From positions 372,001-436,000 of the forward strand of contig JAJCZA010000002.1 of assembly GCA_029262635.1 (NCBI GenBank): 64,000 nucleotides of DNA, read 5' to 3'. Numbering within the stretch: position 1 is the first letter of the stretch; each line of letters starts with the position of its first letter. Below, piece after piece: positions 16,540 through 22,324 of this stretch. The stretch is from Vampirovibrionales bacterium. Its GTDB lineage: Bacteria > Cyanobacteriota > Vampirovibrionia > Vampirovibrionales > Vampirovibrionaceae. Position numbers and translations under genes: made by a program. Below the pieces are notes generated by a model. It did not search any database. It saw only the letters and a list, made by a program, of their open reading frames with translations, and was not told the DNA's origin.

Positions 16540-16797
16540 ATGAGCGTATCCTGTTGCGCGGGCCCCCGTTTTTCTGCCGCCACCCAACCTAATCCATCTT
16601 CTTCCCAAAAAGCGCCGGTCAATTTTGGCTCGCAAGGGCAAAGCCGTCAATCCACGACACAGCAACCAAAATTTGGAGACTGTGGAGTTGTGACAGGTAC
16701 TGTCGGATTTTTAGGCTGTTGCGGTCTGCTGGTTTGTGGCGCGCTTGGCGGGCTGCTGGCCTTGGGCGGTAAGGCGGTGGGTGCCGTTAAGGGTTAG
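16540..16797 (+). CDS. Small FG-tagged, Cys/Gly-rich membrane peptide
   Basis: I do not recognise this 85-residue protein. It has two halves. The first 47 residues are polar, Ser/Gln/Pro-rich and carry three tag-like motifs: GPRFSA (Phe11), PVNFGS (Phe29) and PKFGD (Phe45). The last 37 residues are one hydrophobic Gly-rich segment with three Cys (LGCCGLLVCGALGG) and GxxxG spacings, able to form a membrane hairpin. The leader-plus-hydrophobic-Gly layout recalls peptide bacteriocins, but no processing or transport gene is adjacent. GAGGA lies ten bases upstream of the ATG. It is 26 bases ahead of another FG-tagged gene. Confidence 0.6.
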   Translation: MSVSCCAGPRFSAATQPNPSSSQKAPVNFGSQGQSRQSTTQQPKFGDCGVVTGTVGFLGCCGLLVCGALGGLLALGGKAVGAVKG

Positions 16798-16823: not shown

Positions 16824-17366
16824 ATGGCACTTGCCGTACCACAATCCGCATGGCCTCATTCCCGACCCACTCGGCCCAACCTTCACTTTTGTGGAACGGG
16901 CTGTGGGTGTTCGCGGCAAAAGGTTTCTCCCCAATTCGGATCGCAAGACGATACGGTGACCCTGACGTATGATCCCAATACCTTTCGAGAAGAACGCGGT
17001 GATTACGAGTACGGGAAAATCTACAGCCCTAATGGCGAACTTACCTGGGGTCAACAGGTGTGTACGTCCATGATTCAATTGTATCAACGTCAAACCCGGT
17101 TTAATGAAAATGAATTTTGGGGCGATGTAGGCAAAGCGGTCAGCGCCGGGTGCCCCTATCCCAAACATGACAAGTTGAGCTGTTCAGAATATATGCTGAT
17201 TGCGATTCATAAGCTGGGCGTTATTAAAGGAATTTGGAGCGGAACGAAGCGGCTGACGCGTTGTTTTGCCCCGCCGCTAAACACATGGATGGCCAAAAAC
17301 ATAGACGATCCCGTGTTTAAAATTCAAAGTCCTGCCGCTGGAGAAAAAATTAAAAAACAGCTCTAA
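16824..17366 (+). CDS. FG-tagged hypothetical protein
   Basis: No known domain is recognised in these 180 residues. The N-terminal 40 residues are Pro/Ser/Cys-rich (FCGTGCGCS) and include VSPQFGSQDD, the tag with Phe38, and a weaker NLHFCG. The rest is a soluble alpha/beta-looking domain (DTVTLTYDPNTF near its start, YGKIYSPNGELTWGQ, CSEYMLIAIHKLG). There is no signal peptide. It follows the small FG-tagged gene by 26 bases and is probably cotranscribed with it, and is convergent with the trypsin-like protease gene. Confidence 0.6.
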   Translation: MALAVPQSAWPHSRPTRPNLHFCGTGCGCSRQKVSPQFGSQDDTVTLTYDPNTFREERGDYEYGKIYSPNGELTWGQQVCTSMIQLYQRQTRFNENEFWGDVGKAVSAGCPYPKHDKLSCSEYMLIAIHKLGVIKGIWSGTKRLTRCFAPPLNTWMAKNIDDPVFKIQSPAAGEKIKKQL

Positions 17367-17392: not shown

Positions 17393-18403
17393 TTAGGACC
17401 CTTTTCCGTTAGACTCCTGACCTAGTAACTTTTCGACGATTTCTTTCAACGCATTAGCCTCAACCGCAAAACCATAGCTCTGTTCTCCCGGTACGGTCCC
17501 GACATTCATAGCCACAACCTCGCCACTCATATTTATTAATGGGCCGCCTGAATACCCTTCCATGATATCGGCATCGGTCTTCACTCCGGGATAATGCTTA
17601 TTGAGAAGCCATTCCGTACTACTGATTAGGCCGTTTACCACAGACCAAGTCATCCCCTTGGGGTGACCAATGGCGATAATCGGATCTCCTGCTCTGACCT
17701 GATCGGCAAGATCGAAGGTTGGCAATTCCAGTTGGCCTATCTCGTTAGGATTGACACGGAGTACCGCCACATCTGCATTGGAATCGCTAGCAATTGCAAT
17801 AGGGTGTAACTCCAAACCATTTTGCATAGTAACAACAATACCGTCTTTGCCCTCAATTACATGATGGTTAGTCACAATAATGCCATCTTTACGATAGATG
17901 AACCCGCTGGCTACAGTTCTTTGAAAATCCCCTAAGCCAAAGGGCATAGTTTTTTTTGTATGAATCGCCACCACTCTGGGCATGGCGTATTCTGTCACCA
18001 AGGGGTAGTGGTTCAAGTCCTTACCAATATCTCCCGCCATGTTTTCTCGGATTTTCGCTAATGTCTGCTTCCCGCGAATAGTGTTTAACTCAACATAATC
18101 TGTGGCGGGAGGTCTCCTTTCTAAAATTGTAAGGGGTTGTGTATTATCCGATGTATTGTGTTTTAGACCCCACTGTGAAGTTAGGGCTAGGAAAGTTGTT
18201 ATGATTAACCCTCCTAGAATAAGCCTATAACGACTTTTTCCCTTCGAATCGCTATTGAGTTTTTTCAGGATATCGGGTTCGGGAGATTGGGGCAGGGGCG
18301 TAAGTTGATCACTCCCAAAGCGGGGGGGCAATGTTTGGAAAGTATTCGGTAAATGCTTCGTCGAGGAATTGGCCGAAGGACGAATGCCTGTCATTATATG
18401 CAT
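17393..18403 (-). CDS. Membrane-anchored trypsin-like (HtrA-type) serine protease with FG tag
   Basis: A 336-residue S1C-type protease. The catalytic triad is His181 (TNHHVIEG), Asp211 (NADVAVLRV) and Ser285 (GYSGGPL). A transmembrane helix covers about residues 60-77 (LILGGLIITTFLALTS), so the protease domain probably faces the periplasm. Before the helix lies a polar Ser/Pro-rich stretch with LPPRFGSDQ (Phe29), the tag shared with unrelated proteins here. There is no PDZ domain after the protease domain, unlike DegP. AAAGGA lies eight bases upstream of the ATG. It is 46 bases downstream of an M41-like protease on the same strand; the two are likely an operon. Confidence 0.85.
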   Translation of the reverse strand: MHIMTGIRPSANSSTKHLPNTFQTLPPRFGSDQLTPLPQSPEPDILKKLNSDSKGKSRYRLILGGLIITTFLALTSQWGLKHNTSDNTQPLTILERRPPATDYVELNTIRGKQTLAKIRENMAGDIGKDLNHYPLVTEYAMPRVVAIHTKKTMPFGLGDFQRTVASGFIYRKDGIIVTNHHVIEGKDGIVVTMQNGLELHPIAIASDSNADVAVLRVNPNEIGQLELPTFDLADQVRAGDPIIAIGHPKGMTWSVVNGLISSTEWLLNKHYPGVKTDADIMEGYSGGPLINMSGEVVAMNVGTVPGEQSYGFAVEANALKEIVEKLLGQESNGKGS

Positions 18404-18449
18404 CTGTTTGGTCCTTTAATTATATCTATTATTGTAGAATCAGTAAGAG

Positions 18450-19634
18450 TCAAGTCTTGGTACTGTTTGATAAGGAAGTCCATTTTTTTGCTTCAGCTAG
18501 TGCTTTTTTAGTCGGTTCTTCCATCTCCCGACGAGTAGGCTCTACTGCAAGTTGATTGACCATACCTGCTAGCTCATCCCAATTAACACCCTCTAAGGCG
18601 TCTCTAATGAGTGGTTCTGCTTTCTTTGTTTCTCCGCCCTTTAAGGATAATATAGATTCGACTAAGGGTTCTAACTGGTCTTTTGGAATTTGTTTAAATA
18701 CTTCAACCATGGTGCCCTCCATTCGGTCTATAAAGTTGTTAATAAACTGCAATTCTTCCGCAGATAGTTGAGGTTTCCGACGAAAAACACGACCGTCTTG
18801 TAAGGCGGTGGTATTAAATCCTGGGATTGCGCCAGAACGCATAAACTTTTCGAGTTCTTTTAGAATTTCATCCCAGTCTTTTTTTCCTATTGGTGTGACG
18901 TCTAAAATATTCTCGTTTTTTCGTATTTCCATAGCCCGACCCGAAACCGCTATAATTGAATGAGCAATTACATCAAGAAAGGAGTCAATTTTATTTTTCT
19001 CTGTTGGTAGTAGAACTGTGTTTCCCAGATGTTTTCCTCGAAGATGGACAGACAATTTCCCCAGTTTATAAGGTTGTTCTGTTAATTTTGGATTTGATTT
19101 TTTTATGGCGTGATTCCAAATTAATACGGCAGTGGCGTGTCCCAATTCATGCCAGGCAGTCGTTTTCCTGTCCTCAATATCGATGGGGGTAAGGTGACGT
19201 GCAATTGACATACCTGCCAGAAATGCAGAGAGCAGTATTAATATTAGCTCCGGTGGTATATCTTGAAAGGCTCTTTCAACAGAATGAGTCTCAATGGGTT
19301 CTTTTACCGATGGTTCAGCACTTTTTAAGTCATCGGTAGTGGTGACCTTAGTGGAGGCATTTATCTCATTCGATGACTTAAAAAGTGCTGAACCAGAAGA
19401 ACCCGTGCTTTCTCCTGCAAGAGCCGAAGGCGTTACAAAAGTAAGAAGTGCTGTTATTAGCGCTATGGAAGGGGTTAGTTTTTTTTGTGTCTTTTTCCCT
19501 CTAAAGTGCATGGGGTAGGACGTTTCTTTGGATAATCTCGTGGAAGGTGTGTGGCTTTTTTTAATCGTGTTAACTTGTGAGGGTAATTGACCCTGTCGGC
19601 TTAGATAGTAATGATTGTTAATAGTAAAATCCAC
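18450..19634 (-). CDS. M41 (FtsH)-like zinc metallopeptidase without AAA domain
   Basis: The protein (394 residues) contains a peptidase domain like the C-terminal part of FtsH. The zinc motif is His162-Glu163-Leu-Gly-His166 (TAWHELGHATAV). IAVSGRAMEI matches the GGR-AEE block of FtsH, and a following GKKDWDEILKEL could supply the third ligand Asp. No AAA+ ATPase domain is present. Two hydrophobic segments lie at about residues 55-72 and 130-145, before the catalytic part. The first is preceded by SYPMHFRGKK, a possible variant of the FG tag. The start is a GTG with AAGGG upstream. An internal ATG at Met42 would leave a classical signal peptide but has no binding site. Confidence 0.7.
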   Translation of the reverse strand: MDFTINNHYYLSRQGQLPSQVNTIKKSHTPSTRLSKETSYPMHFRGKKTQKKLTPSIALITALLTFVTPSALAGESTGSSGSALFKSSNEINASTKVTTTDDLKSAEPSVKEPIETHSVERAFQDIPPELILILLSAFLAGMSIARHLTPIDIEDRKTTAWHELGHATAVLIWNHAIKKSNPKLTEQPYKLGKLSVHLRGKHLGNTVLLPTEKNKIDSFLDVIAHSIIAVSGRAMEIRKNENILDVTPIGKKDWDEILKELEKFMRSGAIPGFNTTALQDGRVFRRKPQLSAEELQFINNFIDRMEGTMVEVFKQIPKDQLEPLVESILSLKGGETKKAEPLIRDALEGVNWDELAGMVNQLAVEPTRREMEEPTKKALAEAKKWTSLSNSTKT

Positions 19635-19978: not shown

Positions 19979-22324
19979 CTATAGCTTTTCCAGTTTCACA
20001 TAACGGGGGTCGAGGAGTTTTTTTCCGTCGATTTTGGCGAATTTAATATTGTAAAGATTTTTATTACCGGAGCTAATCACCTGTTCCACAACACCAACAC
20101 CAAAGCGAGGGTGTTTGACTTGATCGCCAGCCTGCAAGACAGCGGCTGTTCCGCTGAATCTTTTGCCATGAGAAGAAACACTAGAGGAACCCAGTGGCGT
20201 TCGGTTGCCGGACCCGCCCAGGGTGACGCCGCTACCGGATCGTTCGCCCAGTCGTCCGCCACCGGTTCGTAACCCACCGGAGTCGCTACCATAAACATCC
20301 GATACCCTTGATTCATGATCCAGACTGTAGGATCCGGTCAGGCGATCCGCCGGGGCTTCTTTTAAGAATCGGCTCGGGGTGGCGTATTTAATATCACCAA
20401 ATACCATCCGTCGTCGGGCAAAACTTAGAAAGAGCCGCTCTTCGGCTCGGGTGACGCCCACGTACATCAGGCGACGCTCTTCTTCCATGCCGTCTTTATC
20501 GCTTAGGGCACGAAAATGAGGGAACAGTCCTTCTTCAAGACCCACCAGAAAAACCACGGGAAACTCCAACCCTTTAGCGGCGTGGAGGGTCATGAGGACA
20601 AATTTGTTTTCAACGGGTTCAGTCGTGTCAATATCACTCAGAAGTGCCATTTGGGTGAGAAAATCTGCCAGGCCGCTGTCTTCTCCTGTGTTTTCCGCTA
20701 TAAATTTTCGGGTCACGCTGACAAATTCTTCCACGTTAGCCACCCGACCCTCGCTATCGGTCGGGTCTTCCAGTTTCAATTCGTCGTAATAACCAGTTTT
20801 TTCTAATATTTGAAGGGTCAGTTCATCCAGAGGTACTTTAAGGGCTTCGGCTTTTAGGTGTTCCATAACCATGACAAAGCTAGCAATGGCTTTTTTCGCT
20901 TTTGGCTTGAGGGCATCAATTTGGTCGGCCTGTTTCAACACCTGATAAAATGGCAGGCCCCGCATTGAGGCAGCCTGTTCGATATGTTCGATGCTGGTTT
21001 TTCCAATGCCGCGTTTGGGGACATTAAGAATTCGTTTGACGCTGTAAGCGTCTTGCTCGTTGAAAATAACGGTGAGATAGGCCAGTACGTCTTTGATTTC
21101 TCGACGCTCGTAAAATTTCAGGCCGCCAATCATGGTGTAAGGAACACCTCGGGAAATTAGCACATCTTCAAGCGCCCGGCTCTGAACGTTGGTCCGGTAT
21201 AAAATAGCGCAATCACCCGGTTTGTATTTGCTTTGGCTCGTCAGGGCCTGCATTTTACTGACCACAAAGTCGGCTTCTTCCCGCTCGTCTTTTGCTTCGT
21301 AGCAAAAAACGCTTTCGCCTTCGCCTCGAACGGCTTTAAGTTCTTTGGGCAGGCGATCTTCATTCTGTTCGATAATTTCGTTGGCCACGGCCAGAATATT
21401 GGCGGTGGAGCGGTAGTTTTCCAACAATTTGATGGTTTGGGCATCAGAGAAATCGCTTTGAAAATTCAGGCAAATCCGAAAATTGGCGCCCCGCCAGCTA
21501 TAAATCGACTGATCCACGTCACCGACGGCGGTCAGACTTCGCTTTTGCCAGAGCATTTTATGGAGTTCTGGTGTCCGTTCGGCTTTGTTGCATCCTTCGG
21601 TTAAAAGCCGGATGAGTTCGTATTGAACGTCGTTGGTATCCTGGAATTCATCCACCAGAATATGCTTGAATTGACTATGATACTGATGAAGCACGCTGGG
21701 GTTTTGTTGAAGCAGTTTGACGGTAATTAATAGCATATCGTCAAAGTCCATGGCGTTGTTGGTGCTCAGGAGGGCTTCGTAAGCATCGTAGATGCGAGCC
21801 AGCTTTTCGGCCCGGAAGTCTGTGGCCGAAGAGGCGTAATCGTAAGCATCAAAGAGTTTGTTCTTGAGTTCGCTAATCATGTAGCGAATGTTTTTGGGGT
21901 TGTACAGCTTGTCATCCATGTCAAGGGCTTTAATGACTTCCTTAACCGCCTTTTGGGACTCTTCCTGGTCGTAGATGACAAAGTTTTGGGTCCAGGTTCG
22001 GTTGGATTGTGAGACGTAGTGGGTGATTTGTCGCCGAAGGATGCGACCACAGATGCTGTGAAAGGTTCCTGTCCAGAGACCACTTGCGATATTTTCCCCA
22101 ACCAACTTGCCTACCCGTTCTTTCATTTCCCGAGCGGCTTTGTTGGTAAATGTAACAGCCAGTATTTCACCTGGTTCATTTTCCTGCTCTAATAAATGGG
22201 CGATCCGATGGGTTAAAACCCTTGTTTTTCCACTGCCTGCGCCTGCCAATACAAGTAAGGGGCCTGTAATGTGGGTAACAGCGGCTAATTGGGACGGGTT
22301 CAGTTTATCTAAAAGGTGATTCAC
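19979..22324 (-). CDS. pcrA: UvrD/PcrA-type DNA helicase
   Basis: A complete superfamily 1 3'-5' helicase of 781 residues used in nucleotide excision repair and replication-fork maintenance. It has Walker A GAGSGKT at residues 28-34, motif II VDEFQDTN, the motif GDVDQSIYSWRGA, and the late motifs LMTLHAAKGLEFPVVF and RRLMYVGVTRAEERL. A Ser/Gly-rich linker precedes a C-terminal Tudor-like module (VKHPRFGVGVVEQV), which in PcrA contacts RNA polymerase. The start is GTG with a GAGAGAAG binding site. PcrA and UvrD cannot be told apart confidently. Confidence 0.95.
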   Translation of the reverse strand: MNHLLDKLNPSQLAAVTHITGPLLVLAGAGSGKTRVLTHRIAHLLEQENEPGEILAVTFTNKAAREMKERVGKLVGENIASGLWTGTFHSICGRILRRQITHYVSQSNRTWTQNFVIYDQEESQKAVKEVIKALDMDDKLYNPKNIRYMISELKNKLFDAYDYASSATDFRAEKLARIYDAYEALLSTNNAMDFDDMLLITVKLLQQNPSVLHQYHSQFKHILVDEFQDTNDVQYELIRLLTEGCNKAERTPELHKMLWQKRSLTAVGDVDQSIYSWRGANFRICLNFQSDFSDAQTIKLLENYRSTANILAVANEIIEQNEDRLPKELKAVRGEGESVFCYEAKDEREEADFVVSKMQALTSQSKYKPGDCAILYRTNVQSRALEDVLISRGVPYTMIGGLKFYERREIKDVLAYLTVIFNEQDAYSVKRILNVPKRGIGKTSIEHIEQAASMRGLPFYQVLKQADQIDALKPKAKKAIASFVMVMEHLKAEALKVPLDELTLQILEKTGYYDELKLEDPTDSEGRVANVEEFVSVTRKFIAENTGEDSGLADFLTQMALLSDIDTTEPVENKFVLMTLHAAKGLEFPVVFLVGLEEGLFPHFRALSDKDGMEEERRLMYVGVTRAEERLFLSFARRRMVFGDIKYATPSRFLKEAPADRLTGSYSLDHESRVSDVYGSDSGGLRTGGGRLGERSGSGVTLGGSGNRTPLGSSSVSSHGKRFSGTAAVLQAGDQVKHPRFGVGVVEQVISSGNKNLYNIKFAKIDGKKLLDPRYVKLEKL

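Follow-up and report, generated by a model that had tools for sequence, protein, structure and literature searches.

Motorless M41-type protein and PDZ-less HtrA-type protease encoded side by side in a Vampirovibrionales genome with an FG-tagged set of accessory proteases

A 64,000-nucleotide stretch of the genome of a Vampirovibrionales bacterium (hereafter the window) carries two adjoining genes for putative membrane proteases, one an M41-type protein without the AAA+ motor of FtsH and the other an HtrA-type protein without PDZ. The question raised by this locus is whether the two work together and, if so, on which side of the membrane, the initial annotation having proposed a proteolytic cascade on its outer face. 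The host belongs to a branch of the Cyanobacteria that is non-photosynthetic, poorly studied and partly predatory.

The locus and its two proteases

Both open reading frames are intact and span exactly the coordinates initially assigned to them. The first (18450–19634, minus strand) encodes a putative M41-only membrane metalloprotease of 394 aa and begins with GTG, the first in-frame ATG coding for residue 42. It is followed on the same strand, after a gap of 46 bp, by the gene for a putative HtrA-type (Trypsin_2) membrane serine protease of 336 aa (17393–18403). A pcrA/uvrD-type helicase gene (19979–22324) lies upstream of the M41 gene on the same strand, leaving no room upstream for an AAA+ module ahead of this next gene. 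Downstream of the HtrA-type gene is a convergent YidD-like gene (16824–17366, plus strand) whose FG-tagged product (HFCG, QFGS) contains part of a YidD domain (PF01809, 36.6 bits); together with the gene for a small membrane protein with motif matches to the FG tag (16540–16797, plus strand; NFGS, KFGD), the genes at 16540, 16824, 17393 and 18450 constitute a run of four tagged genes. Strand and spacing suggest that the M41 and HtrA-type genes form one operon; a promoter and terminator scan of the locus returned no more than shuffled sequences yield.

The gene pair is not conserved, a finding that goes against the initial annotation on the very point it had offered for its own refutation. An orthologous standalone M41 protein was not found in 57 relatives, in which the query matched AAA-bearing paralogs only, and the pair is missing beside or downstream of pcrA in seven family genomes that have pcrA. 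Nor is there an M41 gene beside the HtrA-type relatives at two other loci, one in another genus (L030) and one in the window's own genome (L031).

Pfam Peptidase_M41 (PF01434) matches residues 152–236 of the M41 protein with 24.9 bits (E 2e-5), under its 29.9-bit cut-off, the NCBIfam FtsH equivalog model TIGR01241 scores 20.2 bits versus a cut-off of 600, and no AAA domain is matched by Pfam at E 10. The zinc motif HELGH (residues 162–166; 19137–19151, minus strand), the GRAMEI block (residues 232–237; 18924–18941, minus strand) and D253, the predicted third zinc ligand (18876–18878, minus strand), are all present. H162, E163, H166, G232 and D253 are invariant when the protein is aligned with the AAA-bearing FtsH paralogs, as are A234 and E236 of the GRAMEI block; D253 is nearly invariant in another alignment. 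An initial AlphaFold (AF2) model, with an input of six sequences, had low overall confidence (pLDDT 52), and its best 47 Foldseek matches are all FtsH-type proteases. A second model, of residues 118–394 and with 17 input sequences, reached pLDDT 78 and pTM 0.76, all of its best 48 matches in the PDB being chains of FtsH, m-AAA, YME1 or FtsHi (top E 4e-5). The predicted structure, which the initial annotation had suggested as a check, thus confirms the M41 fold, and Pfam, AlphaFold and Foldseek agree on the M41-like protein with HELGH and GRAMEI that had been read from the sequence. Sequence ahead of the second membrane segment that by eye resembled a relic of the AAA lid scored not above shuffles, and this reading was rejected.

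The HtrA-type protein is matched by Pfam Trypsin_2 (PF13365, 88.3 bits) and Trypsin, and its lack of PDZ, also part of the initial reading, is upheld by a Pfam search with no PDZ match at E 10. The trypsin-like domain occupies residues 165–299 (17507–17911, minus strand) and has an intact catalytic triad (H181/D211/S285), with 51 residues remaining past the serine. Its best subfamily matches are Do, HhoA, HtrA and DegS models, NCBIfam degP_htrA_DO scoring 129 bits, below the 416 cut-off; PADLOC returned weak trypsin-domain matches only. A second protease pair in the same genome consists of two trypsin-like proteins encoded near each other (L194 and L197; C7, 56–58 kb), tagged or near-tagged and with PDZ present.

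That both proteins are membrane-anchored, with an FG tag or variant before the first helix, also holds. The HtrA-type protein has the tag PPRFG (residues 26–30; 18314–18328, minus strand, motif match) and a single predicted anchor oriented N-in (residues 61–81; 18161–18223, minus strand), preceded by six K/R and one D/E. The M41 protein has the variant PMHFRG (residues 41–46; 19497–19514, minus strand), but where one N-terminal helix had been described it has two hydrophobic segments (about residues 56–74 and 126–146). The first of these (TM1; SIALITALLTFVTPSALAG; 19413–19469, minus strand) is either a membrane segment or a signal peptide by Kyte-Doolittle hydropathy and charge count, with five K/R and no D/E in the preceding stretch, and the second (TM2; 19197–19259, minus strand; Kyte-Doolittle maximum 1.93) ends 15 residues before HELGH. 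A C-terminal helical tail (residues 292–360; 18555–18761, minus strand) is seen in alignments and is common to the Vampirovibrionia family of FtsH paralogs.

Paralogs of the M41 protein and the FG tag

Five M41-type genes are present in the genome. Besides the window protein, they encode a canonical FtsH, AAA-bearing paralogs of 770 aa and 1234 aa, and an M41-only protein of 252 aa. The C-terminal tail is shared by the window protein and the paralogs and is missing from canonical FtsH, thus grouping the window protein with the local FtsH paralogs and suggesting that it descends from an FtsH-type paralog that lost its AAA module. The 1234-aa paralog has a block of tag and TM1 similar to that of the window protein (equally good in 2 of 300 shuffles), and these two proteins share HExGH. 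The M41-domain tree separates the canonical FtsH rows with a support of 100/100, and the standalone proteins form long branches whose place among the paralogs is not fixed by the tree.

A first contig scan with the M41 protein as query found no relatives; related FtsH paralogs occur in named records of Melainabacteria and Vampirovibrio MAGs. Two further AAA-less M41 proteins occur within the family of the window organism. The 252-aa protein of the window's own genome (L066, 1474–2232) is FG-tagged and has lost HExxH, making it a pseudo-protease M41 domain without ATPase, and an M41-only protein from another genus of the family (L062) has HELGH and FG motifs and no membrane segments. Among the matches listed for 146 genomes of the class, M41-only members are confined to the window's family, and a class-wide standalone family is not supported; short frames that resemble contig-edge fragments of FtsH (e.g. 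G064, G015, G133) were set aside from this count. The window M41 gene itself has a GC3 of 0.33, versus a genome mean of 0.48 (SD 0.06), a hint that the gene may be young, foreign or under relaxed constraint.

The FG motif was fixed as P.{0,2}[KRHQNT]F.?G once the window and an initial genome sample had been read, and was scored in the first 60 residues of proteins from 400 kb fetched thereafter. These held-out sequences contain 24 N-terminal matches, whereas the remainder of the proteins would predict 3.6 (about sixfold enrichment, Poisson 1e-12). Reversing the motif gave 6 matches versus 3.4 expected, which is not a significant excess; the tag is therefore real and beyond chance. Tagged genes neighbour each other above chance (p about 0.005). 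Most of the tagged proteins that were scanned match no Pfam family, and proteases stand out among those recognised: counted on sample stretches read from the genome, the tag or a close variant is carried by 4 of 5 M41, 5 of 8 Trypsin_2 and 2 of 3 ClpP genes, and also by one M17 aminopeptidase. The strict motif marks 8 of these 17 peptidase genes, compared with 37 of 741 ORFs (Fisher p 1e-6). Some circularity enters this comparison, since the motif was defined at a time when several of the eight had already been seen.

Canonical copies of FtsH, HtrA and ClpP are untagged, the tag being carried by accessory copies. Independent support comes from another genus (G005), where the accessory ClpPs (L204, L214) likewise have the motif or a close variant and the canonical ClpPs do not; in one of them the tag is at the matching place (RFGGAKL versus HFSGAKL). 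FtsH paralogs are tagged inside the family (RFAG, LFG, RFQG) and untagged outside it, and in small samples of four other families of the class (f3, f4, f6, f8) the strict motif is not above background. A limited literature search found no description of the motif. We propose tentatively, at somewhat less than an even chance, that in Vampirovibrio and its relatives P-x-[QRHK]-F-(x)-G sorts or docks a duplicate proteolysis machinery to one place or partner, apart from the untagged canonical copies. With like reserve, the machinery may comprise FtsH-like proteins with or without AAA, an HtrA-like protein, two ClpP-like proteins, the M17 aminopeptidase and possibly the YidD-like factor. The restriction of the tag to accessory copies points to a dedicated second system of protein degradation, and this tagged set is a more interesting lead than the window pair.

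The two accessory ClpP paralogs of the window's genome (L188, 1402–2415; L189, 1096–2154) have N-terminal extensions with several FG tags, and the M17 leucyl-aminopeptidase-type protein (L106, 17290–19332) combines a tag with a predicted membrane segment, which is unusual for a normally soluble enzyme. A protein encoded in the window at 4643–5443 has SPFGS near its N-terminus and matches MTP18 (mitochondrial 18 kDa protein) with 37 bits, above the cut-off; this family is known mainly from eukaryotes. Runs of three and four adjoining FG-tagged proteins occur at L115 (14606–16291), where the N-termini read MNPT(T/A)PIQFGQI, and at L183 (135–3456), with no Pfam family among the proteins scanned in them.

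Proposed mechanism and alternatives

With a basic stretch ahead of TM1 and another hydrophobic segment just ahead of HELGH, the M41 domain would lie in the cytosol both if TM1 is cleaved off as a signal peptide and if it stays as an anchor, and the single N-in anchor of the HtrA-type protein, with its basic N-terminal side, would place that protease domain in the periplasm. On these hydropathy and charge counts, the two proteases probably act on opposite sides of the membrane. The reading that we consider somewhat more probable than all others together is that of a motorless accessory FtsH acting independently of ATP at the cytosolic face and a periplasmic HtrA-type neighbour, both in the tagged accessory set. 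The M41 protein would be a diverged accessory FtsH that lost its AAA+ motor and kept its zinc site, held by two hydrophobic segments with its protease domain at the usual FtsH side. It is most likely an ATP-independent inner-membrane metalloprotease whose substrates would be segments already unfolded or exposed, possibly within a mixed ring with AAA-bearing FG-tagged FtsH paralogs. The HtrA-type protein, without PDZ, would choose substrates through its anchor and protease domain, so that both proteases might sample the membrane from opposite sides as parts of a lineage-specific accessory set. Their shared N-terminal FG tag probably sends or docks such proteases to a common place or partner. 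It was reasonable to conclude initially that a protein without AAA+ is unable to unfold substrates. Yet robust unfoldase activity is, by one account, missing in FtsH as well (PMC8197885), and loss of the AAA+ part may therefore cost translocation more than unfolding.

The outer-face cascade is very unlikely in light of the predicted topology, in which the M41 domain is cytosolic and only the HtrA-type domain lies outside. The two genes are indeed on the same strand 46 bp apart and both products are anchored and tagged, but the pair is unconserved and a cleavage link between the proteases is putative. A stronger alternative, although still an unlikely one, is that the M41 protein serves mainly as a structural or regulatory subunit in a ring of AAA-bearing paralogs, like plastid ClpR and FtsHi, its own catalysis being secondary. 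M41 domains make the hexamer base in FtsH, the genome holds two AAA-bearing tagged paralogs, the M41-only relative without HExxH can only be structural, and FtsHi motor complexes are among the Foldseek matches; however, the window protein keeps all of its zinc and catalytic residues and its contact with the paralogs is putative.

Counting against the favoured reading are the long branch formed by the M41 protein, its occurrence in a single genome and its low GC3, which would also suit a foreign gene or one in decay. That the gene is what is left of a decaying FtsH paralog, close to becoming a pseudogene and adjacent to the HtrA-type gene by chance, is rather improbable. Consistent with decay are also the lost AAA part, the sister copy without HExxH and the general clustering of tagged genes, against which stand a stop-free ORF of 394 aa that retains zinc ligands, GRAMEI block and tail, and the second HELGH M41-only protein in another genus. 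Export of the tagged proteases to algal prey, with the tag as secretion signal, is scarcely credible: Vampirovibrio chlorellavorus is described as preying on Chlorella by means of a type IV secretion system and has many predicted proteases (PMC4451040), and ankyrin and MTP18-like domains occur among tagged proteins, but several tagged proteins have transmembrane anchors, and VirB4 was not found in the window's genome although the tag is common there. Type IV secretion as a route for the tag was rejected on this ground, with VirB4 present in one of 17 genomes of the order, and the predatory lifestyle of V. chlorellavorus is accordingly not extended to the window organism.

Relation to known proteases

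The M41 protein resembles FtsH (MEROPS M41) in its fold, HExGH, GRAxE-type block and Asp as third ligand, and in two N-terminal membrane segments with a protease domain predicted to be cytosolic. It differs in lacking the AAA+ module and second region of homology, in the 15 residues between TM2 and HELGH, and in the divergent tail common to the Vampirovibrionia paralogs. Another parallel is Arabidopsis VIRESCENT3 (VIR3), a putative, membrane-associated chloroplast metalloprotease with HEAGH and without an ATP-binding domain (PMC9166295). Compared by description only, both proteins lack the ATP-binding domain, keep HExGH and are membrane-associated; they differ in HELGH here versus HEAGH there and in lineage. 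We know of no FG tag or HtrA neighbour of VIR3.

The HtrA-type protein shares with HtrA/Deg proteases (DegP, DegS, HhoA) the trypsin-like domain, the His-Asp-Ser triad and an N-terminal anchor, and departs from them in having an FG tag and no PDZ and in scoring far under the subfamily cut-offs. PDZ-less trypsin-like proteases are common. In plastids, FtsH and Clp include paralogous subunits that are partly inactive, the pseudo-proteases FtsHi and ClpR (PMC8197885), and the HExxH-less M41 copy of the window's genome is comparable; the window M41 protein is the reverse of FtsHi, in which AAA is kept and the protease site lost. As VIR3, PDZ-less proteases and plastid pseudo-subunits are already known, the window pair is a variation on known kinds and not a new kind, AAA-less M41-type proteins having a precedent in VIR3. 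The presence of a motorless bacterial M41 domain and AAA-bearing paralogs in one genome provides a natural test of an ATP-free FtsH protease ring.

Most other AAA-bearing M41 paralogs of the Vampirovibrionia have HExxGH in place of HExGH, with an insertion of one residue (L032, 7540–9852; L036, 7049–9157; L034, 6884–8857; L035, 8787–10760; L071; L073). This pattern is otherwise known from dipeptidyl peptidase III, as HELLGH (PMC3268031). In the FtsH-like paralogs it takes the forms HEVGGH, HEVVGH and HEPAGH, is kept in at least six genomes and is possibly functional.
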